Shown piece after piece: positions 2,680-30,645 of a stretch of DNA of 34,312 nt (position 1 is the first letter of the stretch; each line of letters opens with the position of its first letter). This DNA is from Actinobacteria bacterium HGW-Actinobacteria-5. Lineage in GTDB: Bacteria > Actinomycetota > Actinomycetes > Propionibacteriales > Propionibacteriaceae. The position numbers were made by a program, and so were the translations under genes. The notes under the pieces were generated by a model that was given only the letters and a program-made list of their open reading frames with translations, ran no database searches and was not told where the DNA came from. Where the stretch lies: the NCBI GenBank assembly GCA_002843035.1, contig PHEV01000022.1, positions 1 through 34,312 of the forward strand, written 5' to 3'.

Positions 2680-5067
2680 ATGTCCGTGGACGTGGCGGAA
2701 GCCGTTGACGCAGTGGTGGTCGGGTCAGGGTTCGGCGGTGCGGTAGCGGCTCACCGGCTGGCCGACGCGGGGCGCTCCGTGGTGGTCCTGGAGCGCGGGC
2801 GTGCCTATCCGCCGGGTTCGTTCGCGCGGTCGCCGACCGAGTTCGCCGAGAACTTCTGGTCACCGGACGACCACCTGTACGGGCTCTACCAGGCGTGGAG
2901 CTTCAGCGGTCTCGAAGGGCTGGTCTCAGCCGGGCTCGGTGGCGGTTCGCTGATCTACGCCAATGTGCTGCTGCGCAAGGACCCGGAGTGGTTCGTGCGC
3001 GACTCCCCGATTCCCGGCGGCGGCTACGAGACGTGGCCGATCGGGCGGGAGCAGCTCGACCCCCACTACGACCGCGTCGAGGAGATGCTCGGCGCCCGGT
3101 CCTACCCCTACCCCGACACGCCCAAGACGATCGCCTTCGAGGCGGCGGCGACGCGCGCTGGCTACGCGACGATCCGTCCGCCGCTCGCGGTGTCGTTCGC
3201 GCCGGGCCGGAACGATCCGCCCAGCCTCGACGTCGTCCTGACACCCGACTACGGGAACATTCATCACGCGCCGCGGTTCACCTGCAGGTTGTGCGGCGAG
3301 TGCGACATCGGCTGCAACTACGGGGCCAAGAACACCCTCGACCACACCTACCTCTCCGCGGCCGCGCACGCCGGCGCGGACGTCCGGACGCTGCACGAGG
3401 TGAAGGGCTTCCACCGCGACGCCGACGGCTGGGTCGTGCGGCTGGCCGTGCACGACCTGGACGGCGGGCCGAGTGTCACGCGGGCCATCCGCGCCCGGGT
3501 GCTCGTCCTCGCAGCGGGCACCTTCGGCTCGACCTTCCTGCTCCTGAAGAACCGCGCGGCGCTGCCGGGCCTCAGCGACGCCATCGGCACCCGGTTCAGC
3601 GGCAACGGCGACCTGCTGGGCTTCCTGTTCAACGCACGCGAGGGGATCGAGCGGGAGGCCAGGGCCCGCACGGTGGCGGGCAGCAGGGGCCCGGTGATCA
3701 CCAGCGCGATCCGGGTCGGCGACGTCGTGGACGGCACGGGTGCCCGCGGGCGCGGCTACTACGTGGAGGACGCGGGCTATCCCGGCTTCCTGAACTGGCT
3801 GATCGAGGCCGCCCAGTTGCGTTCGGTGGTCTCGCGCAGCACCCGGATCGCGGCCCGGCTGCTGCTGTCCCGGATCGGGCACTGGAAGAACTCGGACGTG
3901 TCCCGCGATCTGGCGGACGCGGTGGGACGCGTGTCGATCTCGTCCAGCTCGATGCCCCTGCTCGGCATGGGCCGCGACGTCCCGGACGGACGGATGTACC
4001 TCGACCGGGGGCGGCTGGCCGTCGACTGGACCACGGCCACCTCGCTGGCGTTCTTCGACGACATCCGGGGCACGATGGCCGACGTGGCGAAGGAACTGGG
4101 GGCGGACTACCAGGACGACCCGCTGTGGTGGGCGCGGCGCGTGATCACCGTCCACCCGCTCGGCGGCGCCCCGATGGGCCGGAACAGCCACGAGGGCGTC
4201 GTCGACGAATGGGGCCGGGTCTTCGGCACCGAGGGCCTGTGCGTGGTGGACGGCGCGGCCATGCCCGGGCCGGTCGGCGCGAACCCGGCCCTCACTATCG
4301 CCGCCTTCGCAGACCGGGCGATGGAACACGAACTCGAAGCGCCGCGGTCGCGTGCCCACCGGCCGCGACGCTCGCCGCGTCCCGAAGGAGTCGCCGTGAA
4401 CCAACCGACACCCGTACCCGGTGCCACCGCGGTCTCGTTCACCGAGCAGATGAAGGGATTCGTCGGCCTGGGCACGGCGGACCCTGCCGAGGCCTACGAG
4501 GACGCTCGGCTGCGGCGTGAGGACCTCATGTTCGAGCTCACCATCACCGCCGACGACGTGGCCGCCTTCGTGGCGGACCCGGCCCACCAGGGCGGTGCGA
4601 CGGGCTACGTCGAGGGCGAGGTGATCGGCGGCCGTTGCGTGGTCGAGCAGGGCTGGTTCAACCTCTTCGTCGCGGCCGGGCAGGGCACCGACCGGCGGAT
4701 GCTCTACCGTCTCTGGTTCACCCCCGACAGCGGGGAGCCACTCACCCTGGTGGGCTTCAAGGACATCCACGACGACCCCGGGTTCGATCTCTGGGAGGAC
4801 ACGACGACGCTGTTCGTCCAGCTCCTCGACGGGCACGTTCCGCCCGGGGACGTGACCGTCGAGACGGGCCTGCTGCCGGTCGCGGACGCGCGGGTGCGGG
4901 GCGCGGGCATCCTGCGGATCGCTCCGCTGGACTTCGCGAAGCAGCTGACCACCTTCGCTGCGGAGGGCCCGCAGGGCGCGGAGGCGATCGCCGAGTTCGG
5001 GGAGCTTTTCCTCGGTCAGCTGTGGCACACCTACGCGGGCCTCGCCACCGGACGGGGAGGCCGGTGA
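2680..5067 (+). CDS. GMC-family FAD oxidoreductase fused to an uncharacterised C-terminal domain
   Basis: About 795 residues from ATG 2680, which a G-rich Shine-Dalgarno (2665-2672) favours; an in-frame GTG lies at 2671. Residue numbers here count from the GTG. Residues ~12-550 are a cholesterol-oxidase-like GMC enzyme: FAD-binding GSGFGG (18-23), a Cys cluster C205-x2-C208-x2-C211-x3-C215 followed by GAKNT, the His495-containing HPLGGAPMG, and VGANPALTIAA with Asn538. A basic linker (~555-575) leads to a ~220-residue domain (from ~576) whose fold I do not recognise. I recall similar GMC-domain-hydrolase fusions in other bacteria. Here the hydrolase is the next gene, overlapping by one base (TGATG). 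The likely substrate is a sterol or other hydrophobic alcohol, by inference. An internal ribosome site precedes the second domain. Confidence 0.85.
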   Translation: MSVDVAEAVDAVVVGSGFGGAVAAHRLADAGRSVVVLERGRAYPPGSFARSPTEFAENFWSPDDHLYGLYQAWSFSGLEGLVSAGLGGGSLIYANVLLRKDPEWFVRDSPIPGGGYETWPIGREQLDPHYDRVEEMLGARSYPYPDTPKTIAFEAAATRAGYATIRPPLAVSFAPGRNDPPSLDVVLTPDYGNIHHAPRFTCRLCGECDIGCNYGAKNTLDHTYLSAAAHAGADVRTLHEVKGFHRDADGWVVRLAVHDLDGGPSVTRAIRARVLVLAAGTFGSTFLLLKNRAALPGLSDAIGTRFSGNGDLLGFLFNAREGIEREARARTVAGSRGPVITSAIRVGDVVDGTGARGRGYYVEDAGYPGFLNWLIEAAQLRSVVSRSTRIAARLLLSRIGHWKNSDVSRDLADAVGRVSISSSSMPLLGMGRDVPDGRMYLDRGRLAVDWTTATSLAFFDDIRGTMADVAKELGADYQDDPLWWARRVITVHPLGGAPMGRNSHEGVVDEWGRVFGTEGLCVVDGAAMPGPVGANPALTIAAFADRAMEHELEAPRSRAHRPRRSPRPEGVAVNQPTPVPGATAVSFTEQMKGFVGLGTADPAEAYEDARLRREDLMFELTITADDVAAFVADPAHQGGATGYVEGEVIGGRCVVEQGWFNLFVAAGQGTDRRMLYRLWFTPDSGEPLTLVGFKDIHDDPGFDLWEDTTTLFVQLLDGHVPPGDVTVETGLLPVADARVRGAGILRIAPLDFAKQLTTFAAEGPQGAEAIAEFGELFLGQLWHTYAGLATGRGGR
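4385..4398 (+). promoter_or_regulatory. Internal Shine-Dalgarno and GTG start inside the GMC fusion gene
   Basis: AAGGAG (4385-4390), a 5-base spacer and an in-frame GTG (4396-4398) sit exactly at the junction between the GMC domain and the C-terminal domain. Initiation here would yield a free 223-residue protein starting MNQPTPVPG, ending at the same stop. The spacing is as good as that of real starts in the window. Whether it is used is inference. Confidence 0.5.
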
Positions 5068-7998: not shown

Positions 7999-8724
7999 GA
8001 CGCTCCGAAGCTCGAGACCCTGCCCGACGCCGACTTCCAGCGGGTCCTGTGCGTGGTGGCCCATCCCGACGACGTCGAGTACGGCACGTCCGCCGCGGTT
8101 GCGGCCTGGACATCCCGCGGCATCGAGGTGGCCTACCTGCTGCTCACGGCGGGGGAGGCGGGCATGCAACGGCTGCCGGAGGAGACGCGGGTCGTGCGGG
8201 CAGGGGAGCAGCGCGCGGCCTGCGACGCGGTGGGCGTGCGCGACCTGACCGTCCTCGACCACCCGGACGGGATGCTGGTGTACTCCCTCGACCTGCGCCG
8301 GGACATCGCGCGCAGGATCCGGCAGTTCCGGCCGGACGTGGTGGTGACGATGTCGTGGGAGGTGGAGGCTCCGTGGGGGCTGAACCAGGCCGATCACAGG
8401 GCCGCGGGGCTGGCCTGCCTGGACGCCGTCCGCGACGCCGACAACACCTGGGTGTTCCCCGAACTCGCTGCGGACGAGGGCCTGTCCAAATGGGGTGCGA
8501 CCTGGTTCCTGGTCGGCGGGGACGCGCGTCCGACCCACGGCGTGGACGTCTCCGGCGACCCCCTCGAACGGGGCATCGCCTCGCTGGCGGCGCACGCCGC
8601 CTATCTCGCCGACCTGCCCGGCCACCCGACTCCCCGTGACCTGCTCAGCGGCTCCACCAGCGGCGCCGGTCAGGCTCTCGGGGTCGCCAACGCCGTCCTC
8701 TTCCGCGCCCACAAGCTCCGCTGA
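7996..8724 (+). CDS. PIG-L/LmbE family deacetylase
   Basis: A 242-residue protein of the zinc-dependent N-acetylglucosaminyl deacetylase superfamily, which includes MshB, Mca and eukaryotic PIG-L. The signature A-H23-P-D-D26-V-E supplies two zinc ligands, and A-D133-H134-R-A-A supplies the third (His134). Asp25 is the likely general base. It is shorter than MshB or Mca, which are nearer 290-300 residues, so a mycothiol role is possible but not shown. The substrate is probably an N-acylated sugar or glycoconjugate. The gene has its own leaderless promoter and ends in a convergent junction filled by a 27-bp inverted repeat. Confidence 0.85.
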   Translation: MDAPKLETLPDADFQRVLCVVAHPDDVEYGTSAAVAAWTSRGIEVAYLLLTAGEAGMQRLPEETRVVRAGEQRAACDAVGVRDLTVLDHPDGMLVYSLDLRRDIARRIRQFRPDVVVTMSWEVEAPWGLNQADHRAAGLACLDAVRDADNTWVFPELAADEGLSKWGATWFLVGGDARPTHGVDVSGDPLERGIASLAAHAAYLADLPGHPTPRDLLSGSTSGAGQALGVANAVLFRAHKLR

Positions 8725-9634: not shown

Positions 9635-10750
9635 TCAGAACGGGGACGGACGCCCGGTTTCGGCGAGCAGCAGCCGCAGCGCCGCCTCGGGACCGCCGGC
9701 GTCCCGCTGCCGGGAGTAACTGGCGCCCCGCTCGGCCAGTTCGCCAGCGAAGCGCAACTCCTCCGCGCAACCCAGGTCGCGAGCCACCGGTTCGAGCCGC
9801 TCCAGCCACTGCGCCAGACCCTCGCGCAGCGGCACCTCGCGGCGGGCCCGGTTGGGTGTGATCACGTCCGCGTCCAGTCCGTAGCGGGCGGCGCGCCACT
9901 TGTTCTCCCGCACCAGCCACGGCGGCAGCGCCTCGTAGGTCTGGTCGTGCTCCCAGGTGCGGGAGACGTGCTCGGCGAAGCACTGGGTGAGAGCGGCCAG
10001 GCAGCCCAGTTCGGCGAGGGTGGGCACCGAGTCGGCCGTGCGGTTCTCCACCGTCCCGAACCGCGGTGCCGGGCGGACGTCCCAACGGATCTCCCCGGGA
10101 GTGCTGATCATGCCGCAGTCGAGCAGGTCGTCGGCGTACGCCTCGAACTCGGCCCAGCTCGTCATCGGGTAGGGCAGGCCGTTGGTCGGCAGCTGCTGAA
10201 ACAGCATGGTGCGCTGGGACGCGTACCCGGCGTCCTCACCCTCCCAGTACGGGGACGAGCAGCTCAATCCGAGCAGGTACGGGTAGAACCGGGCCAGGCC
10301 GGTGGTGATCGGCAGCGCCTTGTCCCGGTGCTCGACACCGACGTGGACGTGGGTACCGCAGATCGCCATCTGGCGTCCCCACCAGCCGTTGCGCTCGGCC
10401 ACCACGTCGTAGCGGTCGCCGTGGAACCGCGGCTGGTCGGCGGCCCGGCTGAACGGGTGCGTGCCCGATCCGATCAGGCCCACGCCGAGCCGACCGGCCA
10501 CCCGCTGCACGACCGCGAAGCTGGCGGCGACGTCGGCCACCGCCTCGCTCACCGTGGCATGGACGCCGGAGACCAGCTCGACCATCTCCTGCAGGTACTC
10601 CTTGCGGATCGGCGAGCCCGTGTCGCTGTCGCAGGCGTCCAGCACTTGCGGTGCGGCCGCGGTCAACTCGCCCGAGGCGACGTCGACCAGCGCCAGTTCC
10701 CACTCGATCCCCACGCTGGAGCGGGCGGACGGGGCGAAGTCGATCAGCAT
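9635..10750 (-). CDS. Carboxylate-amine ligase, GCS2 family (YbdK/EgtA-like)
   Basis: A 371-residue protein of the glutamate-cysteine ligase type 2 family, which joins glutamate or a related carboxylate to an amine using ATP. Visible family segments are GIEWELALVD (14-23, metal-binding Glu16 and Glu18), LIGSGTHPFS, QMAICGTHVHVGVEH with paired histidines, EIRWDVRP and FGTVENRTAD. Length is typical for YbdK-type ligases (~370). It starts at ATG 10750 with GAGGAG upstream and a -10 box TAGAAT (plus-strand 10779-10784). In actinobacteria such enzymes make gamma-glutamylcysteine for ergothioneine (EgtA) or have unknown products. No other ergothioneine genes are visible here, so the product is open. 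Confidence 0.85.
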   Translation of the reverse strand: MLIDFAPSARSSVGIEWELALVDVASGELTAAAPQVLDACDSDTGSPIRKEYLQEMVELVSGVHATVSEAVADVAASFAVVQRVAGRLGVGLIGSGTHPFSRAADQPRFHGDRYDVVAERNGWWGRQMAICGTHVHVGVEHRDKALPITTGLARFYPYLLGLSCSSPYWEGEDAGYASQRTMLFQQLPTNGLPYPMTSWAEFEAYADDLLDCGMISTPGEIRWDVRPAPRFGTVENRTADSVPTLAELGCLAALTQCFAEHVSRTWEHDQTYEALPPWLVRENKWRAARYGLDADVITPNRARREVPLREGLAQWLERLEPVARDLGCAEELRFAGELAERGASYSRQRDAGGPEAALRLLLAETGRPSPF

Positions 10751-12810: not shown

Positions 12811-14780
12811 CCGCTTATCGCGCGACGCCCGACGACCTCGCGGAGGACCGGAACCGGCGGGACACCCGCGCCACGGACTGGGTGCACGGCCCGACGGACG
12901 AGCAGGTGCCGCCCGAGCTCCTGATCACGCCCGGCCTGCCCTGGTCCGACCGGCTGGCCGCGCTGCGTCGTCGGCACCGGCTCCGCGGCGAGCGTGCCCG
13001 TGCGTTCTACGCCGCGTCCCGCACGCCGGAACGGGGGCTGCCCGTGGCCGGCAACGCGGCCGCGTGGGCGTTCGTGAAGCGCCTGCTGCGCACCCGCAAG
13101 GGCAGCTTCGCCCTCACCGTGGCCACGAACCTCGCTGCGGCGGTGGCCGGACTGATCGTCCCGCGCCTGCTGGGGAACCTGGTCGACGAGGTCACCGGTG
13201 GGGCGACCGGCGCCACCCAGGTGGATCCGATCATCGGCGGCGTCATCGTCGTGGTGGTCGTCCAGGCCGCGCTGGTACTGGCTGCGCGGCGGGCCTCGGC
13301 CGTGCTGGGCTACGACCTGCTTGCCGCCGCGCGGGAGGAGATCGTCGACACCGTGCTGCGGTTGCCCCTGGGCGAGGTCGAGTCGGCGTCCAGCGGCGAC
13401 CTGCTCACCCGGATCACGTCCGATGTGTCGAAGATGAGCCAGTCGGTGCGTTGGGCATTCCCACAGCTGGTGATGTCGTCGGTGCTGGTGGTGGCCAGCC
13501 TGGTCGCGTTGGTGCTGAACTCGGCGTTCCTCGCGCTCACGATGAGTGGGTCGCTGGTCGTGCTGTGGTTCGCCACGCGCAACTATCTGCGGCACGCGGG
13601 TGCCGGCTACATCACCGAGTCCGGCACCTACAGCCAGATCAACTCGACCACGACCGAGACCGTGGAGGGTGCGCGGACGGTGGAGGCCCTCGGTCTGGGC
13701 GAGCGCCGGATTGCGATCGGGGACGCGGACGTCGAGGTGTCGAGTCAGGCCGAGCGCTACACGATGACGCTGCGGAACCTGTTCTTCATCTTCCTCGACA
13801 TCTCCTACCAGCTGCCGCTGGTTGGCGTCGTCCTGCTGGGCACCTGGGGTTACGCGGAGGGCTGGGTGACGTTGGGCGAGATCACGACTGCGGCGATCTA
13901 CGTCCAGGGCCTGGTCGAGCCGATGGACCGGCTGATCCAGGTGTTCGACACGCTGCAGGTGGGGCTGGCCGCCACGACCCGTCTGCTGGGGGTGGCGGAG
14001 GTTCCGGAGGACCGGGTGGCGGGCGATGACCGTCCGCGGGGCACCGACGTGGTCGGGGTGGACCTGCGCTTCGCCTACCGTCCGGGCGTGGACGTGCTGC
14101 ACGGCATCGACCTCGACCTGCGGCCGGGGGAGCGGCTGGCGATCGTCGGCCCGTCCGGGTCGGGCAAGTCGACCCTGGGCCGGCTGCTGGCCGGGATCAA
14201 CGGCCCCCGCACCGGGGAGGTCGATATCGGCGGGGTGGACGTGATGACGCTGCCGCTGGACCTGCTGCGCACCGAGGTGGCGCTGGTGACTCAGGAACAC
14301 CACGTGTTCGTCGGCAGCGTCCGGGACAACATCGTGCTGGCGCGCGACCGCCAGCTCGAGGGCGACGCCGTGGACGAGGCGGTGCGGGACGCGCTGCGCG
14401 CGGTGGACGCGCTGGACTGGGTCGAGCGACTGCCGCAGGGACTGGACACTGTGCTCGGCCACGGCCGGGTGCACCTGACGCCCGCGCAGGCCCAGCAGGT
14501 GGCGCTGGCCCGACTGATGGTGGCCGACCCGCACACGCTGGTGCTGGACGAGGCGACGTCCCTGATCGACCCGCGTACGGCCCGCCATCTGGAGGGTTCG
14601 ATGGCTGCGCTGATGGAGGACCGGACGGTGATCGCGATCGCACACCGGTTGCACACCGCCCACGACGCCGACCGGATCGCCGTGGTGATCGACGGACGCA
14701 TCGCCGAGCTCGGCTCCCACGCCGAGTTGCTCGCCCTCGACGGCGAGTACGCCCGCCTGTGGCGCACCTGGCGCTCGTAG
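12807..14780 (+). CDS. ABC exporter subunit B (permease plus active-type ATPase domain)
   Basis: A 657-residue half-transporter from ATG 12807, coupled to subunit A. A ~85-residue cytoplasmic N-terminal extension precedes six membrane helices (~90-395). The ATPase domain has an intact Walker A GPSGSGKST (448-456, Lys454), Walker B LVLDE (Asp581, Glu582) and switch His613 (AHRL). Its signature is degenerate: LTPAQ (557-561) in place of LSGGQ. With subunit A this builds one complete site (Walker A/B/His from B, LSGGQ from A) and one non-functional site. Heterodimeric exporters with one degenerate site (TM287/288, BmrCD, TmrAB) are known; here the asymmetry is nearly total. Drug, lipid or peptide export is possible. 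Confidence 0.92.
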   Translation: MTAYRATPDDLAEDRNRRDTRATDWVHGPTDEQVPPELLITPGLPWSDRLAALRRRHRLRGERARAFYAASRTPERGLPVAGNAAAWAFVKRLLRTRKGSFALTVATNLAAAVAGLIVPRLLGNLVDEVTGGATGATQVDPIIGGVIVVVVVQAALVLAARRASAVLGYDLLAAAREEIVDTVLRLPLGEVESASSGDLLTRITSDVSKMSQSVRWAFPQLVMSSVLVVASLVALVLNSAFLALTMSGSLVVLWFATRNYLRHAGAGYITESGTYSQINSTTTETVEGARTVEALGLGERRIAIGDADVEVSSQAERYTMTLRNLFFIFLDISYQLPLVGVVLLGTWGYAEGWVTLGEITTAAIYVQGLVEPMDRLIQVFDTLQVGLAATTRLLGVAEVPEDRVAGDDRPRGTDVVGVDLRFAYRPGVDVLHGIDLDLRPGERLAIVGPSGSGKSTLGRLLAGINGPRTGEVDIGGVDVMTLPLDLLRTEVALVTQEHHVFVGSVRDNIVLARDRQLEGDAVDEAVRDALRAVDALDWVERLPQGLDTVLGHGRVHLTPAQAQQVALARLMVADPHTLVLDEATSLIDPRTARHLEGSMAALMEDRTVIAIAHRLHTAHDADRIAVVIDGRIAELGSHAELLALDGEYARLWRTWRS

Positions 14781-20361: not shown

Positions 20362-21063
20362 ATGAAGAAGATGAGCGGACAGAACACGAGCAGTTCCCGC
20401 ATCCTTCGCCACGTACTCGTGGGCCTCGCAGTCATCGCATTGTGCCTCGGTGCTTTGAGTTGGGTGTCATCTGCGGCGGGCCTGGGGCTGTTCGGCTTCT
20501 TGCAGCCGAGCATGGAGGATGTCCTCGACGGTCGTAGGGCGAATGCGGAGCGCCTGGCCGCGATTCAGACGGTCGACAAATGGATGGCCCAGTCGATCAC
20601 CCCCGGCGCGACGCTGGCGGGCACTCAGACCTTCACGAGGTGCGAGTGGGGTCAGAACAACCCCGAGGTCAACGATGGCTATCGGCTGCGTTGCACCGCG
20701 AGCGGTGTGCTGGTTAGCTCCTGGGAGGGCAGTTTCGACGGGTTCACGCAGGCCATGGCGTCACGGCTTGAAGCCACTTGTCCGGGTGCTGGACCGTGGC
20801 GCACGCCACTCTCGCCGGGCTCGAGGGGCCACTCCGACCCCCTACGTTACGAGTGCTCGAACGGCCTCACGCTGTACCTGATCTTCGGGGACTCCAGCCG
20901 CGTGGCCAGCGATGGCTTGGCCAACGGAGTGCTGCCTTGCACGGACAACTTCCGCTGCATCTCGGGGGCCGCCGACGGTGAGCTTCGGCAGGCCGTGACG
21001 GGCTCAGACTCCTATGCGATCCAGCAGATCGACAAGACCTATTACGAGGATCAACTGTGGTGA
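20362..21063 (+). CDS. Membrane-anchored extracytoplasmic protein, function unknown
   Basis: A 233-residue orphan. A basic N-terminus is followed by one hydrophobic helix (~15-38: HVLVGLAVIALCLGALSWVSSAAGL), consistent with a signal anchor. The outer part (~45-233) contains six cysteines in pairs (TRCEWG, RLRCTAS, ATCPGAG, YECSNG, PCTDNF, RCISGA), consistent with disulfides in a secreted domain, and ends in YYEDQLW. ATG 20362 is used; ATG 20371 is an alternative. Codon use is less GC-biased than its neighbours, suggesting acquisition or fast evolution. It is isolated between non-coding stretches. I recognise no family. Confidence 0.6.
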   Translation: MKKMSGQNTSSSRILRHVLVGLAVIALCLGALSWVSSAAGLGLFGFLQPSMEDVLDGRRANAERLAAIQTVDKWMAQSITPGATLAGTQTFTRCEWGQNNPEVNDGYRLRCTASGVLVSSWEGSFDGFTQAMASRLEATCPGAGPWRTPLSPGSRGHSDPLRYECSNGLTLYLIFGDSSRVASDGLANGVLPCTDNFRCISGAADGELRQAVTGSDSYAIQQIDKTYYEDQLW

Positions 21064-22135: not shown

Positions 22136-23179
22136 ATGCCGCGATCGAAGAAGGCCCTTCGGCTGCCAACCCTCGAAGAGGTGGCAGCGCAGGCAGGCGT
22201 GTCCCGGGCCACGGTCTCGCGGGTCGTCAACGGGGTGGGCACGGTCGATCCGGCCCTCGCGGAAAAGGTACGGGCCGCCATCACCCAGGTCGGGTACTCC
22301 CCGAACTTGGCTGCGCGGGCGTTGATGACGAATCGCACCGACCTGGTCGCACTCGTCGCCCACGAGCCGGACACCAGGGTCTTCAGCGATCCGTTCTTCG
22401 CCGGGATCGTCCGGGGGGTCAGCCAGGAACTGCGCCGGGCCAAGCTGCGGATGGTGTTGATGATGATCCAGAGCCCCGAGGACCTGGACCAGTTCAACGC
22501 CTACCTGCGCGCCGGGCACGTCGACGGCGTGCTGCTGATCTCCGAGCACGGGTCGAACCCGATCTCGTCGCACGCCGAGGAGGCCGGCCTGCCGATCGTC
22601 ATGGGTGGCCGCCCGTTCGACTCCTCCGATATCACCTTCGTCGACAACGACAACCGTGGTGGAGCGGAGTTGGCGGCCGCGCGCCTGGTCAGCCTCGGGC
22701 GGCACCGCATCGCCACCATCGCGGGGCCCCTCGACATGAGCGCGGGCGTCGACCGACTGGAGGGGTTCCGTAGGGGTTTGGGCGACCGGTTCGACGAGAC
22801 GCTGGTGGAGCATGGCGACTTCACCCTGAAGGGTGGCGCCGACGCGGCTCGCCGGCTGCTCGATCGTCACCCCGACGTCGACGGCATCTTCGTCGCCTCC
22901 GACCTGATGGCGCTGGGGGTGCTTCCGGTTCTTCGTGAAGCCGGGCTACGCGTGCCCGAGGACGTCGCGGTGGTCGGCTTCGACGACATCGAGTTGGCGA
23001 CCTACGCCGACCCGCCGCTCACGACGGTGCGCCAGCACACCCGGGATCAGGGACGGCTGATGGTCCGCACGCTTCTGGCGTTGCTGGGTCGCGAACTCCC
23101 CACCGAGGACGAGCGGCTGGTGGATGGTACCCAGTCGCTGGTCAATCCGGTTGAGCTGGTGGTGCGTCAGTCCGGCTGA
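22136..23179 (+). CDS. LacI-family transcriptional repressor
   Basis: A 347-residue regulator. The N-terminal helix-turn-helix (11-33: PTLEEVAAQAGVSRATVSRV, hinge-helix region to ~60) is standard LacI/GalR. Residues ~65-347 form a periplasmic-binding-protein-like sugar sensor (DPFFAGIVRGV, FVASDLMALGVLPVL, VVGFDDIELATYADPPLTTVRQ). ATG 22136 has a TAGGAT -10-like box (22121-22126) close upstream. Its stop overlaps the end of the convergent giant enzyme gene by 13 bases. The three identical GCGC-centred palindromes between that gene and the sugar importer are of the LacI-operator type, so this protein probably represses both and is released by the imported sugar or its breakdown product. Confidence 0.92.
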   Translation: MPRSKKALRLPTLEEVAAQAGVSRATVSRVVNGVGTVDPALAEKVRAAITQVGYSPNLAARALMTNRTDLVALVAHEPDTRVFSDPFFAGIVRGVSQELRRAKLRMVLMMIQSPEDLDQFNAYLRAGHVDGVLLISEHGSNPISSHAEEAGLPIVMGGRPFDSSDITFVDNDNRGGAELAAARLVSLGRHRIATIAGPLDMSAGVDRLEGFRRGLGDRFDETLVEHGDFTLKGGADAARRLLDRHPDVDGIFVASDLMALGVLPVLREAGLRVPEDVAVVGFDDIELATYADPPLTTVRQHTRDQGRLMVRTLLALLGRELPTEDERLVDGTQSLVNPVELVVRQSG

Positions 23180-26100
23180 ACCGGCGTGCCGAGGTCGGGT
23201 CCGTTCCCGGGAGTGTGGACGACGATCGAGCTGACCCGATTCGACCGGGAGAAGACCTCGCGTGAAAGATCCGTCGGCAGGACCGTCCCCGGGAGCCGCT
23301 GGCTGCTGCCGTCGCTGAACGCGACCTCGATCGACGCGGTCGCCGAGCGGCTTCGCCGGTAGCTGACGGGAGTGCGGCACATGCTGAAGGCCAGGGAATC
23401 GGCGGGCAGGTCAATCCGTCGGGAGGTCCCGGTCGAGTCAACCACGTCCCAGGACGTGGCCGCGCTGGTCCAGTCATCGTCGCGGACCAGCTGAGGCCGG
23501 AACTGGATCTGGCCGCCGCTGACCGCCACCCCCAACTCGCCGATGCGGATCAGCACGTCCTCCTTCACCTGACCGGTCATGCCGGGCTGCCGCGCACCGG
23601 CATGTGCCGGGGTGTGCGAGTAGGGATCGATCGGGAAGGCTCCGTACCGGGACGGTGACTTCCGGAACCCGAGCCCTTCGCGGATGTCCTCGAAGCGGTC
23701 GACCAGCTCGGTCACAACCGCGTCGGGTTCGTCGTTGAGGCGTGCGTGCTCGATGGTCTCCTGGACGGCGAGAAGGAGCTTGGAGACCATGTGCCAGTAG
23801 ATGCTCCCGAGGCCTTCGAAGGCGAAGAACGACCCCGACCGCCCGGTGAAGTTGCGGTGGCCGAACGTTGCTTCGTAGTGCTCCAGGACCCGTCCGCGGT
23901 CCCGGGACACCGCCTCGGTGAACCGCGGGTCTTCGGCCAGCCTGTCGAGAGCCTCCCGCAGGTGGGAAGCGTTCCGCATTCCGGGGGCGAAGTGCACCGA
24001 GCCGTGGAGATCGGTCACGGTGACCGAGCGATCGTTGAGCTCGGCGGCCAGAGCGTAGAGAGGGCACTCCGCCGCGGCGCCGGCCTCGACCACGTTCCGG
24101 GCCAGGAACCCGGGCAGGTCCTTGTCCGGGTACAGCAGGTAGCTGTGCTGGTCGGCCCGGAAGAGGGCGCTGTTGCGCAGGGCCCTCAGGACGCGCAGCG
24201 AAGCGGCCCCGTCCAGCAACCCGGAGGACAGCATGCTCACCTGGCCCTCGAGCATCGGCGCGAGCCGGCCGATCGTGGCGCGCCCGTCGGTGAGCTCGAG
24301 GGTGTTGTAGCTGTGCACCATTCCGTTGCTGCGGACGTTGCGGGCCAGGCTCAGCTCGACATAGTGCCGCGCCAGCTCCAGCAGCGCGCTGATGTCGGCG
24401 GCGGCAAGGCTGACCCGCGCGGCCGGCGCCGCCCGGTAGGCCCGTTGCCGGTAGGCGTCGCCGGCGCGGCCCAGATCGACCAGTGCCGTGTAGCGGGCCT
24501 CCTCGCTGAGCCCGGCGTCGAAGCCATCCTTGTGTGTGCCGAGGATGTCGATCAGTGCGCGGATCAGCTCGGCCAGGTCAGCGCTCACCTCGGCCGGCCC
24601 GGTCAGCATGCTCTGCAGGTGCACCAGGTAGCGGCGCAGGTAGCCGAGGGTGACCACCGAGAGCCCGCGGCCCACCAGGGCGTTGTTGGCATCGTTCCAT
24701 TCGGGGCGCTGGGTATTCATCCAGATCCCGCCGTCTGGCACGAGGTTCACCAGCTTGGCGGCCAGCAGGAGCAGCAGCTTCTCCGCGAGCGTGACCCGGT
24801 CGAGGTCTCCGTCCGGGTTCACCCGCAGGGCGCCGTCGCCGCCGAGCTCGCCCTGCCGACGAAGGCTGTCCTGGTGGGCAGGGACATCGAAAGCGATGGT
24901 CTGGGCGGGGTCGGCGAGGACGTCGTCGAACGGCTTGAGGCGGTAGGGAACGTCGGCGTGGGTGAAGATGCGCCGTGCCAGCAGGGCCTCGGCGGCTCCG
25001 GGATCGAAGCGCCGGGACGCCTCGAGGAGCTTCTGCAGGTAGATGATCTGGTGGTCACTCCAGTAGCCGAGGTTCGCCCAGGGGTTGTCGGGTTCGGGCA
25101 CCTCCCAGTCGATTCCACTGCGGGAGATGCGGTAGGGGTTGTAGCCGTCGACGGTGGTCGCGTTGACGAAGATGCAGATCATGTTCTCCAGGTAGTCGGG
25201 GTGCGACCACGCCAGGGCCTCCCAGTTCTGGAAGATGTCCCGCCAGTTCCCCTGATAGCCGACGATCGGCCCACCGGAGGGGTCGAGGAGGCGGATCTCG
25301 AAGCGGTTCCACGGCCGGCTCGGATCGCCGTGGCGCCGGCTGAACATCAAGGGCAGGTATTCCCGGGCCAGCCGGGCGAGATCGGGATCGCCGGTCGCGT
25401 CGGCCCAGGTTCGCAACGCGCTGATTTCCAGGGTGGGCGGAAGCACGGCCAACGCCGCGGTACTGCGTTCGAGGACCGCGCGGTTGCGTTGCCCGATGAA
25501 GGCCCGGAAGTCGGCGGCCTCAAGCCGGTAGCCGTCGACCGGCACGCCACCCCGCATCGCGTTGAACAGTGCGCTCGTGGTGTGGTGGGCAGTCGTGCGT
25601 TCGTCGCTGCCCACCTGGAAGCCGTCCACCGAGGCAACGATGCTGTGGAGCCGACGGCGGCCTTCGGAGAGATCGTCGTCGAGCTGCTCGACCAGCGCGC
25701 CAGGGTCGAGCAACGCATCCTCCAGTGCCACGACCCGGGCCGCGTCGAGCTCGACGTCGGCTGCGACCACCCACTCGCAGGTGGCGCCGGGCGGCAACTC
25801 GAGGCTGGAGTGGTTGAGGTAGGCGCCACGCCGGCCCCGGACGTCGCTCTCCGCGCGTACCGGACGCCCGGCGCGGAAGCCCTCGAGCTGGGTCGTCGAG
25901 AGCAGGGTGGTCGCGGACGGGAGCCCGACCTGCCACACGGCGGTCGCCGAGAGGGACTCCGCCGGCTCGGCCAGATCGGTGAGCAGCGAGCTCATGGTGA
26001 AGAGCCCCAACCCGGTCGCGGGATCCGCCTCGGCGCGCTTGTAGGCGTCGACCAGATTGCTGAGGTCGGTCTGGACCTGGGCGGTCACGCCCGAGGGGAG

Positions 26101-26619
26101 GACGTTGCGCAAGCCGTCCAGCACCTCGAGGGAACGGCTGCTCCTCCCCGTGTTCGTCAGCCGGCAGCGCCGGATCAGGCCGAAGCGCTGGCTCGCCGTC
26201 CAGGTGACCGAGAAGCGCAGGCCGATCCCGGCGGCGTCCTCGGTGAACTGGATCGAGTCGCCGAGGACGGTCTTGGTCAGCGAGCGGGAGCAGCCGTCGG
26301 GGCGGGAGGCCCGGGAGAACGGCTCCCAGGCCTGGGCTTCGGGGGTTGCGGTGTCACGGATCAGCGTGATGCCACCGGTGTTGCCGACGTTCTCGGTGAC
26401 CTTGTCGTCGGTGTAGTACGGCAGCAGGGCGTGGTTGGCGTCCCATCGTCCGGCCGTCAGGCCGCCGGTGCTGGCGAGGAAGCACCAGACCTCGGTCGCC
26501 GTGGCCAGCGTCATGAAGAACGGCGGCAGCAGGTCGACGTCGTTGATCCGGTAGGAGCGCTCTCCATCGAGGTCGCAGAACTCGCCGCCGGCGGTATCGG
26601 CTGCTTCGGTCACGGGCAT
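23167..26619 (-). CDS. Very large GH94-like carbohydrate-active enzyme (putative oligosaccharide phosphorylase or hydrolase)
   Basis: A 1150-residue cytoplasmic protein (no signal peptide) from ATG 26619, with AAAGGAAC upstream. The first ~330 residues look beta-rich (sandwich-like). The middle (~370-1000) is helix-rich with aromatic clusters (YQGNWRDIFQNWEALAW, EPDNPWANLGYWSDHQIIYLQ). QRPE-W641-N-D643-ANNALVG resembles the W-N-D motif carrying the catalytic Asp of GH94 phosphorylases (ADWNDGMN-type). The size matches the ~1100-residue GH94 branch that includes 1,2-beta-oligoglucan phosphorylases, but subgroup identity is inference. Genomic partners (LacI, sugar importer) fit intracellular cleavage of an imported glucan fragment. 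It could instead be a hydrolase of a neighbouring (alpha/alpha)6 family. Confidence 0.65.
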   Translation of the reverse strand: MPVTEAADTAGGEFCDLDGERSYRINDVDLLPPFFMTLATATEVWCFLASTGGLTAGRWDANHALLPYYTDDKVTENVGNTGGITLIRDTATPEAQAWEPFSRASRPDGCSRSLTKTVLGDSIQFTEDAAGIGLRFSVTWTASQRFGLIRRCRLTNTGRSSRSLEVLDGLRNVLPSGVTAQVQTDLSNLVDAYKRAEADPATGLGLFTMSSLLTDLAEPAESLSATAVWQVGLPSATTLLSTTQLEGFRAGRPVRAESDVRGRRGAYLNHSSLELPPGATCEWVVAADVELDAARVVALEDALLDPGALVEQLDDDLSEGRRRLHSIVASVDGFQVGSDERTTAHHTTSALFNAMRGGVPVDGYRLEAADFRAFIGQRNRAVLERSTAALAVLPPTLEISALRTWADATGDPDLARLAREYLPLMFSRRHGDPSRPWNRFEIRLLDPSGGPIVGYQGNWRDIFQNWEALAWSHPDYLENMICIFVNATTVDGYNPYRISRSGIDWEVPEPDNPWANLGYWSDHQIIYLQKLLEASRRFDPGAAEALLARRIFTHADVPYRLKPFDDVLADPAQTIAFDVPAHQDSLRRQGELGGDGALRVNPDGDLDRVTLAEKLLLLLAAKLVNLVPDGGIWMNTQRPEWNDANNALVGRGLSVVTLGYLRRYLVHLQSMLTGPAEVSADLAELIRALIDILGTHKDGFDAGLSEEARYTALVDLGRAGDAYRQRAYRAAPAARVSLAAADISALLELARHYVELSLARNVRSNGMVHSYNTLELTDGRATIGRLAPMLEGQVSMLSSGLLDGAASLRVLRALRNSALFRADQHSYLLYPDKDLPGFLARNVVEAGAAAECPLYALAAELNDRSVTVTDLHGSVHFAPGMRNASHLREALDRLAEDPRFTEAVSRDRGRVLEHYEATFGHRNFTGRSGSFFAFEGLGSIYWHMVSKLLLAVQETIEHARLNDEPDAVVTELVDRFEDIREGLGFRKSPSRYGAFPIDPYSHTPAHAGARQPGMTGQVKEDVLIRIGELGVAVSGGQIQFRPQLVRDDDWTSAATSWDVVDSTGTSRRIDLPADSLAFSMCRTPVSYRRSRSATASIEVAFSDGSSQRLPGTVLPTDLSREVFSRSNRVSSIVVHTPGNGPDLGTPVQPD

Positions 26620-26641: not shown

Positions 26642-26655
26642 AGAAAGCGCTCTCT
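26642..26655. promoter_or_regulatory. LacI-type operator 1
   Basis: AGAAAGCGCTCTCT, a near-perfect palindrome centred on GCGC, immediately downstream of the leftward -10 box and covering the expected transcription start of the giant enzyme gene. It is identical to operator 3 and is the exact reverse complement of operator 2. Confidence 0.85.
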
Positions 26656-26797: not shown

Positions 26798-26811
26798 AGA
26801 AAGCGCTCTCT
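26798..26811. promoter_or_regulatory. LacI-type operator 3
   Basis: AGAAAGCGCTCTCT, 47 bases before ATG 26859, placed at or just after the expected transcription start of the importer operon. Confidence 0.85.
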
Positions 26812-26858: not shown

Positions 26859-28154
26859 ATGCGCTCATCCCTGATCCGGGGCGCGGCTACAGCGGCAGGT
26901 CTGGCACTTGTCCTGGCCGGTTGCTCCACCAGTACGCCGAACCCGGGTGCCTCGACGGCCCCCAGCGACGAGAAGGTCACCCTGACCGTCGCGACCTTCA
27001 ACGAGTTCGGGTACGACGACCTGTACGCCGAGTACACCGCGTCCCACCCGAACGTCACGATCGTGCCGAAGAAGGCCGCGACCTCCAACGAGGCCCGCGA
27101 GAACTACTTCAGCAAGCTCGCGGCAGGCTCGGGCCTGAGCGACATCGAGGCCATCGAGGTCGACTGGATGCCCGACGTCATGCAGACCGCTGACAAGCTG
27201 ATGGACCTCAGCGGCGACGACGTCGCCGGGCGCTGGCTCGACTGGAAGGCCAAGGCCGCCACCACCCCGGACGGCAAGCTCGTCGCCTTCGGCACCGACA
27301 TCGGCCCGGAGGGCGTGTGCTACCGCTCCGACCTGTTCAAGAAGGCCGGCCTGCCGACCGACCGTGAGGAGGTCGCCAAGGCGCTCGGTACGACGTGGGA
27401 CGACTACTTCAACCTCGGCAAGCAGTTCGTCGCCAAGTCCGGCGGTGTGGCCTGGTTCGATGGCGCGGACGCGATCATGCAGGGCCAGATCAACCAGTTG
27501 CCCAACGCCTTCTCCTCCTCCGACACCGAAGAGGTCCTGATCCCGCTCGATCAGAACCAGCCGGTCAAGGACATGTACAACTCGATCCTGAAGGCGTCGA
27601 TCGACGACAAGTTGTCCGCGAACCTGCAGCAGTGGCAGCCGGACTGGACCAACGCCTTCCAGAAGGGCAAGTTCGCCACGATGCTGTGCCCGGGCTGGAT
27701 GCTCGGTGTCATCGAGGGCAACGCCAAGGGCGTCGAGGGCTGGGACATCGCCAACGCCTTCCCCGGTGGCGGCGGCAACTGGGGTGGCTCCTACCTGACC
27801 GTGCCGGCGCAGGGCGCGCACCAGGCCGCGGCCCGCGAACTCGCCGCGTGGCTGACCGCTCCCGAGCAGCAGATCAAGGCGTTCAAGGCCAAGGGCACCT
27901 TCCCGAGCCAGGCCGAGGCCCTCAGCAGCCCTGACCTGCTGGGTGTGAAGAACGCGTTCTTCAACGACGCTCCGACCGGCCAGATCCTGGCCGACCGCGC
28001 CAAGGCCGTCACCATCGTCCCGTTCAAGGGCCCGCAGTACTTCGCCGTCCGGGGCGTCCTCTCCGACGCGATCAACCGGGTCGACATCACCAAGAAGCAG
28101 ACGGCCGCCGATTCCTGGGCACAGGCCGTCAAGGAGTTTGAAGCGCTCGGCTGA
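26859..28154 (+). CDS. Sugar ABC importer, substrate-binding lipoprotein (CebE-like)
   Basis: A 431-residue extracellular solute-binding protein of family 1. ATG 26859 follows GAAGGAG. The signal peptide ends in lipobox L19-A-G-C22, so the mature protein is lipid-anchored outside the membrane, followed by a Ser/Thr/Pro linker. The mature fold begins VTLTVATFNEFGYDDLYAEY and contains GIEAIEVDW-like and PGWMLGVIEG segments typical of oligosaccharide binders. It resembles CebE (cellobiose/cellotriose) in general layout. The substrate is inferred to be a short beta-glucan from the GH94-like partner. A 33-base perfect hairpin separates it from the permease genes. Confidence 0.88.
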   Translation: MRSSLIRGAATAAGLALVLAGCSTSTPNPGASTAPSDEKVTLTVATFNEFGYDDLYAEYTASHPNVTIVPKKAATSNEARENYFSKLAAGSGLSDIEAIEVDWMPDVMQTADKLMDLSGDDVAGRWLDWKAKAATTPDGKLVAFGTDIGPEGVCYRSDLFKKAGLPTDREEVAKALGTTWDDYFNLGKQFVAKSGGVAWFDGADAIMQGQINQLPNAFSSSDTEEVLIPLDQNQPVKDMYNSILKASIDDKLSANLQQWQPDWTNAFQKGKFATMLCPGWMLGVIEGNAKGVEGWDIANAFPGGGGNWGGSYLTVPAQGAHQAAARELAAWLTAPEQQIKAFKAKGTFPSQAEALSSPDLLGVKNAFFNDAPTGQILADRAKAVTIVPFKGPQYFAVRGVLSDAINRVDITKKQTAADSWAQAVKEFEALG

Positions 28155-28227: not shown

Positions 28228-29169
28228 ATGATGTGGCATCACCGGCTCAGCCGTTGGGACGTCAAGAGCGCCCCCTATCTCTACATCGCACCGTTCTTCA
28301 TCCTGTTCGCCCTCGTGGGCCTGTTCCCGCTGCTGTACACCGGCTGGGTTGCGCTGAACAAGTGGAGCCTGATCACGGGCAACCAGGGTTTCATCGGGTT
28401 CGGCAACTTCAGCTACGTCCTGGACCAGCCGCGGTTCTGGGACGCGGTGGTGAACACCTTCAGCATCTTCCTGCTGTCCTCGGTGCCGCAGATGATCATC
28501 GCCATCGCGATCGCCTCGGTGCTGGACGCCAACCTGCGCGCCAAGACCTTCTGGCGGATGGGCGTCCTGGTGCCCTTCGTGGTCGCCCCGGTCGCGGTGT
28601 CGCTGGTCTTCGGGCAGCTGTTCGCCGACCAGTCCGGCGTCATCAACGCCATCCTCACCAACATCGGCCTGGACCCGATCGGCTGGCACTCCGAACGGTT
28701 CTGGTCCCACATCGCCATCGCGTCGATGGTCAACTTCCGGTGGACCGGCTACAACACCTTGATCTTCCTCGCCGCCATGCAGGCCATTCCGCGCGACGTC
28801 ATCGAAGCGGCGGTCGTTGACGGTGCCAGCCGGTGGCGGACGTTCTTCCACGTCACGGTGCCTTTGCTGCGTCCGACGATCATCTTCGTGGTGATCACCT
28901 CGACGATCGGCGGCCTGCAGATCTTCGACGAGCCGCGCATGTACGACAACTTCGGCCTCGGCGGTCCCGACCGCGAATGGATGACCGTCACGATGTACCT
29001 CTACGAGCTGGGCTGGGGCAGCCAGCGGAACCTCGGTCGGTCCGCAGCAGCGGCCTGGCTGCTGTTCCTGATCATCGTGCTCTTCGCCGTCGTCAACTAC
29101 GCCATTACCCAGCGGATCTCCACAACCGAGGGCCGCCCGGCCAAGACCAGGAAGGTGGTGGCCCGATGA
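28228..29169 (+). CDS. Sugar ABC importer permease 1 (MalF/CebF-like)
   Basis: A 313-residue inner-membrane protein with six predicted helices, the first at ~19-40. The EAA loop that docks the ATPase is present at ~193-212 (EAAVVDGASRWRTFFHVTVP). ATG 28228 has GAAGGGAA upstream. It pairs with the next permease, whose start overlaps its stop (ATGA). It forms half of the channel for the sugar delivered by the lipoprotein. Confidence 0.92.
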   Translation: MMWHHRLSRWDVKSAPYLYIAPFFILFALVGLFPLLYTGWVALNKWSLITGNQGFIGFGNFSYVLDQPRFWDAVVNTFSIFLLSSVPQMIIAIAIASVLDANLRAKTFWRMGVLVPFVVAPVAVSLVFGQLFADQSGVINAILTNIGLDPIGWHSERFWSHIAIASMVNFRWTGYNTLIFLAAMQAIPRDVIEAAVVDGASRWRTFFHVTVPLLRPTIIFVVITSTIGGLQIFDEPRMYDNFGLGGPDREWMTVTMYLYELGWGSQRNLGRSAAAAWLLFLIIVLFAVVNYAITQRISTTEGRPAKTRKVVAR

Positions 29170-30074
29170 GTTCGGTCGCGACAACCCGCCAGCTCGCAGG
29201 GAAGGGGGCGGCCCGCGCGGCCGCTCGCAAGCGCTCCCGGATGGAGGGCGGCGTCCGAAGCCCTGGCTGGGGCACCTACACCTTGCTCACGCTGGTGGTG
29301 GTGGCTTCGGCGGTGCCGCTCTACTACGCGTTCCTGCTGTCCACCTCGACCGCAGGAGAGATCGCCCGCAACCCGATCCCGTCCCTGATTCCCCAGGGCC
29401 ACTTCTTCGAGAACGTGACCCGGGTGCTCACCGCAGGCATCGGGTTCTGGCAGGCCCTGCTGAACAGCATCATTGTCAGCCTCGCCACCGCGGCCTCCGT
29501 GGTGCTCTTCTCCACGCTCGCCGGCTACTCGTTCGCAAAGCTGCGGTTCCGTGGGCGCAACTGGATGCTGGCCTTCGTGATCGGCACCATGGCGGTCCCG
29601 ACCCAGCTCGGAGTCATCCCGCTGTTCATCGTGATGTCGCGGCTCGGCTGGACGGGGAAGCTGATCGCGGTGATCGTGCCGGCCATGGTCACGGCCTTCG
29701 GCGTGTTCTGGATGACCCAGTACCTGTCCGAGGCGCTGCCGTACGAGCTGATCGAGGCTGCGCGCGTCGACGGCTGTTCCATGATCCGCACCTTCTGGCA
29801 CGTCGCCCTGCCGGCGGCCCGGCCGGCCGCGGCGATGCTGGCCCTGTTCACCTTCGTCGGTAGCTGGACCAACTTCTTCTGGCCGTTCATCGTGCTCGGC
29901 TCGTCCAACCCGACCCTGCCGGTGGCCCTGCAGTTGCTGCAGGCGTCCTACTTCAAGGACCTCGCCCTGATCATGGCTGGCGTCGTGCTCGCGACCCTGC
30001 CGTTGCTGGTCCTGTTCGCCGTTGCCGGCCGACACCTCGTCTCCGGCATCATGGCTGGGGCCGTCAAGGGATGA
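29166..30074 (+). CDS. Sugar ABC importer permease 2 (MalG/CebG-like)
   Basis: A 302-residue six-helix permease from ATG 29166, coupled to permease 1 by a four-base overlap. A basic N-terminal tail (~1-32) precedes the first helix. The EAA motif is at ~197-216 (EAARVDGCSMIRTFWHVALP). No ATP-binding subunit follows; the next gene is a small unrelated protein. As in Streptomyces Ceb systems, a shared MsiK-type ATPase elsewhere in the genome is expected. Confidence 0.92.
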   Translation: MSSVATTRQLAGKGAARAAARKRSRMEGGVRSPGWGTYTLLTLVVVASAVPLYYAFLLSTSTAGEIARNPIPSLIPQGHFFENVTRVLTAGIGFWQALLNSIIVSLATAASVVLFSTLAGYSFAKLRFRGRNWMLAFVIGTMAVPTQLGVIPLFIVMSRLGWTGKLIAVIVPAMVTAFGVFWMTQYLSEALPYELIEAARVDGCSMIRTFWHVALPAARPAAAMLALFTFVGSWTNFFWPFIVLGSSNPTLPVALQLLQASYFKDLALIMAGVVLATLPLLVLFAVAGRHLVSGIMAGAVKG

Positions 30075-30087
30075 CCGGGGGCGCCCG

Positions 30088-30645
30088 ATGAGCGCGACAC
30101 AGCCCGCAGGCCCCGAACTCGACCAGTCGGCCGCCGCTGCGGGCCCGGGCAGGGAGCTGGACGATCACGGCGACCTGCGCGTGCTGCGCGCGCGGGACGC
30201 CTTCCAGCGGGGGTGGCAGGCGCACCTTCTCGGGGACCGGGTGGGCGCCCTCCTGCACCTCGAGGCGGCGAAGTGGGGCGTCGACGGGATCGAGGAGCGG
30301 GACTGGCCGCTGGCCATGTTCGTGCTCTCCCTCTACGCGTTCACGCAGGCGAGCATCGGCTGCGAGGGCACGGCGACCGCGGCCGCGCAGCGGGCCGCGC
30401 GCACGGCCCGCGCGCACGACCCCTCCCGGAACACGCCACGCGCGATCCGGCTGCGGCTCGCCAGCCGACTTCCCTCGGGGCCCCCCGCGGAGCGGTTCAG
30501 GGAGTGCCTCGAACGATGGGCTCTCGCAGTCGCCTACCGGCTGCCGTCCACTCACTACCGGCTGGCCCACGAGTCGGACCTCAATCGGCTCAGAGCAGCC
30601 CGCCTGTCCCCGGTCAGTGACCGTGCGGAATCGCTACCGGGCTAG
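30088..30645 (+). CDS. Hypothetical protein, last gene of the sugar operon
   Basis: A 185-residue protein starting at ATG 30088, 13 bases after the permease stop, so probably cotranscribed. Codon third positions are strongly GC as in real genes here. The sequence looks like helical repeat hairpins (RARDAFQRGWQAHLLGDRVGALLHLEAAKWGVDG; SLYAFTQASIGCEGTATAAAQRAARTARAH), reminiscent of TPR-like proteins, with no signal peptide or membrane helix. Function unknown. Confidence 0.6.
   Translation: MSATQPAGPELDQSAAAAGPGRELDDHGDLRVLRARDAFQRGWQAHLLGDRVGALLHLEAAKWGVDGIEERDWPLAMFVLSLYAFTQASIGCEGTATAAAQRAARTARAHDPSRNTPRAIRLRLASRLPSGPPAERFRECLERWALAVAYRLPSTHYRLAHESDLNRLRAARLSPVSDRAESLPG

Follow-up and report, generated by a model that had tools for sequence, protein, structure and literature searches.

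Glycoside hydrolase (GH) family 149 was described in 2018 from Proteobacteria, Bacteroidetes and Euglenophyceae, and its characterised enzymes, Pro_7066 and EgP1, are β-1,3-glucan phosphorylases (PMC5827456). The family is inverting, with α-glucose 1-phosphate as the listed product (PMC8950772). In Proteobacteria, type I GH149 gene clusters include an ATP-binding cassette (ABC) importer with a COG0747 binding protein, two permeases and two ATPase genes (PMC5827456). Here we describe a GH149 gene from Actinobacteria bacterium HGW-Actinobacteria-5 (Propionibacteriaceae), located at positions 23167-26619 on the minus strand of contig PHEV01000022.1. The whole contig, 34,312 nucleotides long, was analysed and is referred to as the window; it is the entire contig C284 of an assembly of 3.84 Mb in 295 contigs. 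Judging from the sequence, we predict with high confidence that the gene encodes a cytoplasmic GH149 phosphorylase that degrades imported β-1,3-gluco-oligosaccharides and works with a divergently encoded importer under LacI control.

The gene forms a single open frame of 1150 codons with an ATG start at 26619, and the plus strand of the same interval contains stops in the frame translated. Its product matches the NCBIfam model for GH149 1,3-β-D-glucan phosphorylases (NF058639) over residues 10-1135, hence at full length, at 1374 bits (cut-off 1150). Pfam returned only GH94_b-supersand at 13.2 bits, below the curated 23, and thus does not place the protein in GH94. Among sequences of solved structures, the best match was the GH149 enzyme Pro_7066 (6HQ6/6HQ8; 950 bits, residues 14-1134). 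The next ones, 9QQK (named GH161; 61.5 bits in all) and 9H8V (58.2 bits in all), each aligned in three weak pieces, so that no full-length match to GH161 enzymes was found.

The predicted fold leads to the same family. An AlphaFold2 model built from a 36-row alignment reached a mean predicted local distance difference test score (pLDDT) of 88.0 and a predicted template modelling score (pTM) of 0.89. Foldseek ranked 6HQ8 first for this model, with template modelling (TM) scores of 0.95/0.96 and 39% identity; at lower ranks came GH161 structures (TM to query 0.68 and 0.66) and GH94 laminaribiose phosphorylase (0.55-0.57). VIA-align paired 1126 of 1138 residues with 6HQ8 (Z 49.1, root-mean-square deviation 2.1), followed by GH161 (9GY9 and 9QQK; Z 36.0 and 32.2), GH94 laminaribiose phosphorylase (Z 29.7, root-mean-square deviation 3.9, 828 residues), other GH94 rows (Z about 23-26) and a 1,2-β-oligoglucan phosphorylase (Z about 18). 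Two domains set into the catalytic domain typify the GH149 fold; the 6HQ8 alignment, which compares the whole model rather than single domains, covers them. The GH161 β-1,3-glucan phosphorylases 9GY9 and 9QQK have the same clan fold as the window enzyme, but differ from it in sequence (18-19% identity over 890 aligned residues). GH94 enzymes, including the laminaribiose phosphorylase of Paenibacillus sp. YM-1 (6GGY, 6GH3), have the β-sandwich, the (α/α)6 fold and the W-N-D motif in common with it (PMC6771811), whereas their identity of 10-15%, Z values of about 18-30 and sub-threshold Pfam sandwich set them apart.

The active site could be compared residue by residue. In Pro_7066, the motif W651-N652-D653 contains the predicted catalytic D653, and R470-D471, H959 and the contact residue E951 are also named (PMC6771811). 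Pairing was counted by hand on printed alignments, the chain number minus 19 giving the paper's Pro_7066 number. R470, D471, W651, N652, D653, E951 and H959 pair with R460, D461, W641, N642, D643, E935 and H943 of the window protein, all seven being identical, and D643 is consequently the predicted catalytic residue. The W641-N642-D643 motif lies within RPEWNDANNALVG. Relatives were taken as the best 80 loci of a contig scan baited with NWRDIFQ and YWSDHQI. The seven residues are invariant in the 36-row alignment, which holds the window protein and 35 of these loci; an exact RPEWNDANNALVG is present in 77 of the 80 and NWRDIFQNW in 79, the latter count being biased since part of the string served as bait.

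The GH149 model score and the invariant active-site residues establish that the 1150-residue frame is a real gene and no chance opening. The initial annotation, made from the nucleotide letters, had rightly reported a 1150-residue frame with a W-N-D motif here, to which we add the strand. Its view of a GH94-related (α/α)6 phosphorylase in the size class of oligoglucan phosphorylases, set in a sugar regulon, agrees with the GH149 fold match and with the adjoining LacI and importer genes. Its further suggestion that the protein was not clearly of any family, and might define a new activity or family, is superseded: the protein is a clear member of a known family and founds no new one. Of the checks it proposed, the hidden Markov model search put GH149 over and GH94 under the cut-off, and the structure comparison returned (α/α)6 kin with 6HQ8 far closer than GH94. 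It had also named a match to a characterised family with other chemistry as a point that would tell against it; the family has indeed turned out to be a characterised one, GH149, and the chemistry predicted for it is phosphorolysis, as the annotation had expected.

The enzyme gene and the elements surrounding it are as follows.

22136-23179, plus strand: LacI-family regulator, 347 residues (Pfam LacI 56 bits and Peripla_BP_3 104.8 bits, both over cut-off)
23167-26619, minus strand: GH149 β-1,3-oligoglucan phosphorylase (predicted), 1150 residues (NF058639 1374 bits; 6HQ6 950 bits; model Z 49.1 to 6HQ8)
26642-26655, plus strand: operator copy 1, AGAAAGCGCTCTCT, shortly before the GH149 start codon
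26766-26779, minus strand: operator copy 2, AGAAAGCGCTCTCT, in the divergent promoter
26798-26811, plus strand: operator copy 3, AGAAAGCGCTCTCT, upstream of the binding-protein gene
26859-28154, plus strand: extracellular solute-binding protein, 431 residues (Pfam SBP_bac_8 94.8 bits and SBP_bac_1 70.3 bits, over cut-off)
28228-29169, plus strand: ABC importer permease 1 (Pfam BPD_transp_1 54.2 bits; NCBIfam UgpA 104.4 bits, cut-off 335; scanned from 28231)
29166-30074, plus strand: ABC importer permease 2 (Pfam BPD_transp_1 73 bits; NCBIfam UgpE 110.6 bits, cut-off 297; scanned from 29169)

The LacI gene converges on the GH149 gene, the two gene ends overlapping, and the genes for the binding protein and both permeases run divergently from it. 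The binding protein has a lipoprotein-like start, read by eye. For the permeases, MalF and MalG scored lower than UgpA and UgpE, and since all these matches are under the NCBIfam cut-offs, "MalFG/UgpAE-like" is a class label and does not name a substrate. Importers of this kind can share an ATPase. The genome-wide search with the ATPase model NF008653 gave no match at 22-31 kb of the window; it gave 91 matches in the assembly, one of which, on contig C58 (460.3 bits), exceeds the cut-off of 432 and is a candidate shared ATPase for the importer. ATPase sharing by such importers has been discussed for GH161 clusters (PMC6484121). Two further open reading frames (ORFs) were scanned: one of 185 residues right after permease 2 (30088-30645), without a Pfam or NCBIfam match and without a match in the fetched loci at E 1e-5, and another at 20362-21060, for which neither Pfam nor NCBIfam gave a family.

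The three identical 14-bp near-palindromes AGAAAGCGCTCTCT occupy the divergent promoter between the GH149 and binding-protein genes. A search with their 13-base form, allowing up to two mismatches, returned six matches, namely these three places on both strands, whereas shuffled sequences averaged 0.67 and reached six in none of 100 shuffles. Across the whole assembly at the same tolerance, ten rows represent seven distinct places; three are exact, all in the GH149 promoter, and the other four carry two mismatches; a backwards control gave two. A wide LacI regulon in this genome is therefore rejected as far as such a scan reaches, exact copies occurring in the GH149 promoter only. We infer that the LacI protein binds the three operators. 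One of the two-mismatch sites, TGAGAGCGCTTTCA (C81:30353; L008:1500-1513), precedes another LacI-type gene of the same genome, recognised by eye; it may be the own operator of that second regulator, perhaps a paralogue.

This arrangement recurs in relatives. Neighbour counts cover the fetched stretches of the 80 loci, several of which are short (e.g., 3534 bases for L019), so that an absence of neighbours there says little. The LacI protein, the binding protein and both permeases were matched together in four loci (L013, L014, L034 and L045), all of them metagenome-assembled genomes (MAGs) of Actinomycetales. They represent four of the five Actinomycetota loci among the 80, the fifth, L035 (Demequina), being without the set. 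Distant versions of both permeases are found in seven Chloroflexota or Deinococcota loci (L015, L017, L020, L021, L023, L029 and L083). Sites within two mismatches of AGAGAGCGCTCTCT are present in five of the 80 loci: L013 (five), L014 (five rows, two overlapping), L034 (three), L082 (one) and L090 (five). For L013, L014 and L034, 30 mononucleotide shuffles each gave means of 0.0, 0.07 and 0.03 sites, with a largest value of two.

GH16 includes β-1,3-glucanases. In L013, sites at 13436 and 13457 precede an ORF (ATG at 13531) that encodes GH16 and CBM11 domains. In L034 a site at 8344 precedes a GH16-CBM6 ORF (ATG at 8484), which ends 47 bases ahead of the ATG of the GH149 gene. At the start of the two GH16 ORFs, putative export signals were read by eye. 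L045 has a GH1 gene between the permease and LacI genes and no AGAGAGCGCTCTCT-type site within two mismatches; by eye, GGGACCGGTCCC palindromes at 3600-3890 and 9700-10010, before its binding-protein and GH149 genes, replace the GAGAGCGCTCTC type, and its LacI, at 47%, resembles the window's less than those of the other three clusters do. A joint exchange of regulator and operator may have taken place there. Separately, L090, the GH149 locus of Vibrio hannami, holds five AGAAAGCGCTTTCT sites (1923, 3757, 3823, 14968 and 15143), each with two mismatches. The locus also has two LacI-type matches: a similar operator in a Gram-negative host of the published type.

The initial annotation had noted that no other glycosidase belongs to the regulon. 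For this genome the point stands within the two-mismatch operator scan; among relatives it fails, since GH16 follows the operator in two of them and a GH1 gene lies in the cluster of a third. The conclusion that this enzyme alone should process the sugar was too strong, given those clusters and the glycosidase matches that the genome has on other contigs, one to GH16, four to GH1 and eight to GH3; the products of these genes may make or share the substrate.

We propose the following pathway. Short β-1,3-gluco-oligosaccharides, laminaribiose and longer, would be bound by the lipoprotein and enter through the two-permease importer, probably powered by an ATPase whose gene lies in another part of the genome. 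GH94 enzymes attack from the non-reducing end. With phosphate, and with D643 as the predicted catalytic acid, the GH149 enzyme would release α-glucose 1-phosphate and shorten the chain stepwise. LacI would repress the divergent enzyme and importer genes through the three near-palindromes, and would leave these operators in the presence of the sugar or of a product.

Several observations weigh against this proposal. Identity to Pro_7066 is only 39% (Foldseek), and the action of the enzyme on β-1,3-gluco-oligosaccharides is itself a prediction. The surface site at which Pro_7066 binds laminarihexaose is not kept: by the same hand count, of its eight named residues only R1062 is identical (R1046), while Y841, Y993, E990, E994, E982, K831 and E838 pair with H825, E977, D974, D978, D966, R815 and A822. 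This site is less conserved among distant bacterial GH149 members (PMC6771811), and its loss is therefore no argument on membership in the family. The acceptor subsites of GH149 have not been seen occupied (PMC6771811), so the sequence does not tell which chain lengths and linkages the enzyme accepts. None of the importer proteins passed a substrate-specific NCBIfam cut-off. The window's regulon contains no glucanase gene, and at up to two mismatches no operator accompanies the genome's one GH16 match. In L014, the two downstream ORFs scanned include no glycosidase, and one operator copy (10640) lies inside the GH149 frame.

Some of these points would also fit a phosphorylase of GH149 fold, special to this lineage of Actinomycetota, that prefers a different linkage or acceptor, e.g., mixed-linkage or β-1,4 oligosaccharides. 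The loss of the Pro_7066 surface site and the setting apart of the window lineage in the tree (five rows, support 99; see below) speak for it, as does the tolerance of Pro_7066 for β-linked disaccharide acceptors of different linkage (PMC6484121). Against these stand a score well above the cut-off of a model curated as β-1,3-specific, active-site residues identical to those of Pro_7066 and, in L013 and L034, the GH16 genes preceded by the operator, and we regard this alternative as unlikely. It is very improbable that the phosphorylase is mainly synthetic, making β-1,3-glucan from glucose 1-phosphate, since the GH149 gene and the divergent sugar importer beside LacI have their operators in common, which fits uptake and breakdown. 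Finally, a new GH94-like family or activity, at which the sub-threshold Pfam match alone would hint, is very improbable and, as to the family, is ruled out by the full-length, over-cut-off NF058639 match (1374 bits), the 950 bits to Pro_7066 and the fold match to 6HQ8.

Within the family of the host, four of 147 genomes match the GH149 model, two of them over cut-off, and within its phylum ten of 396 do, six over cut-off, the own genome included in each case; the 15 other genomes listed for the genus gave no match. In one genome of the same family (G110; L010, L012), the match falls in two pieces (633 and 561 bits) that abut in different frames, indicating a broken gene or a sequencing error. 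In an 84-row tree, made by a quick method with Shimodaira-Hasegawa-like approximate likelihood ratio test (SH-aLRT) support only and in which many rows, the window's included, differ in letter make-up, the window protein groups with four other Actinomycetota rows (support 99), and this group nests in a set of 17 rows that also contains Chloroflexota and Deinococcota (support 100). L013 and L080 (stops in the matched stretch), L097 (no frame with the motif), Pro_7066 and EgP1 were left out of the tree. Other Actinomycetota rows (L035 and L093-L096) are placed elsewhere; thus, the GH149 proteins of the phylum are not one clade. A full-length GH149 gene, 46% identical to the window's, is also present on a contig titled Candidatus Brockarchaeota archaeon (MAG; L024:10001-13384); it groups with Acidobacteriota, for which transfer and binning error are both possible.

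Compared with Pro_7066, the degradative phosphorylase proposed here is alike over the full length of sequence and predicted fold, extra domains included, and in its active site, and differs in overall identity, in the surface site and in its gene cluster. Like published type I clusters, in which LacI occurs in some cases and no glucanase is in the cluster (PMC5827456), the cluster here joins GH149 to an ABC importer. Unlike them, it has an SBP_bac_8/SBP_bac_1 binding protein in place of COG0747, UgpA/UgpE-like permeases and, at 22-31 kb, no ATPase match in place of two ATPase genes. In the accessible parts of the GH149 literature we found no account of an actinobacterial member; CAZy's present list lay outside this scope, and we do not claim that none is reported. 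A literature search combining glucan phosphorylases with LacI regulation, laminari-sugars and ABC transport in actinobacteria found no paper. We tentatively suggest that the window enzyme and its sisters from Actinomycetota, Chloroflexota and Deinococcota could form an uncharacterised lineage. Importers of the MalFG/UgpAE type would accompany it and, in Actinomycetales, LacI would govern a regulon on AGAGAGCGCTCTCT in which secreted GH16 enzymes can be present. As they lack the known surface site, these enzymes may depart from Pro_7066 and EgP1 in the acceptors or chain lengths that they prefer.

What is modestly new is this GH149 lineage, found in Actinomycetota, Chloroflexota and Deinococcota, whose importer differs from that of published type I clusters. 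A family whose 2018 description concerned Gram-negative bacteria and Euglena (PMC5827456) is found in an actinobacterium as a compact unit for uptake and, as predicted, phosphorolysis. The same operator is tied to GH16 genes in relatives, which predicts a substrate and a regulator for a lineage without a characterised enzyme in the parts of the GH149 literature consulted. What had been an unknown giant enzyme would now have a named reaction with a testable substrate.
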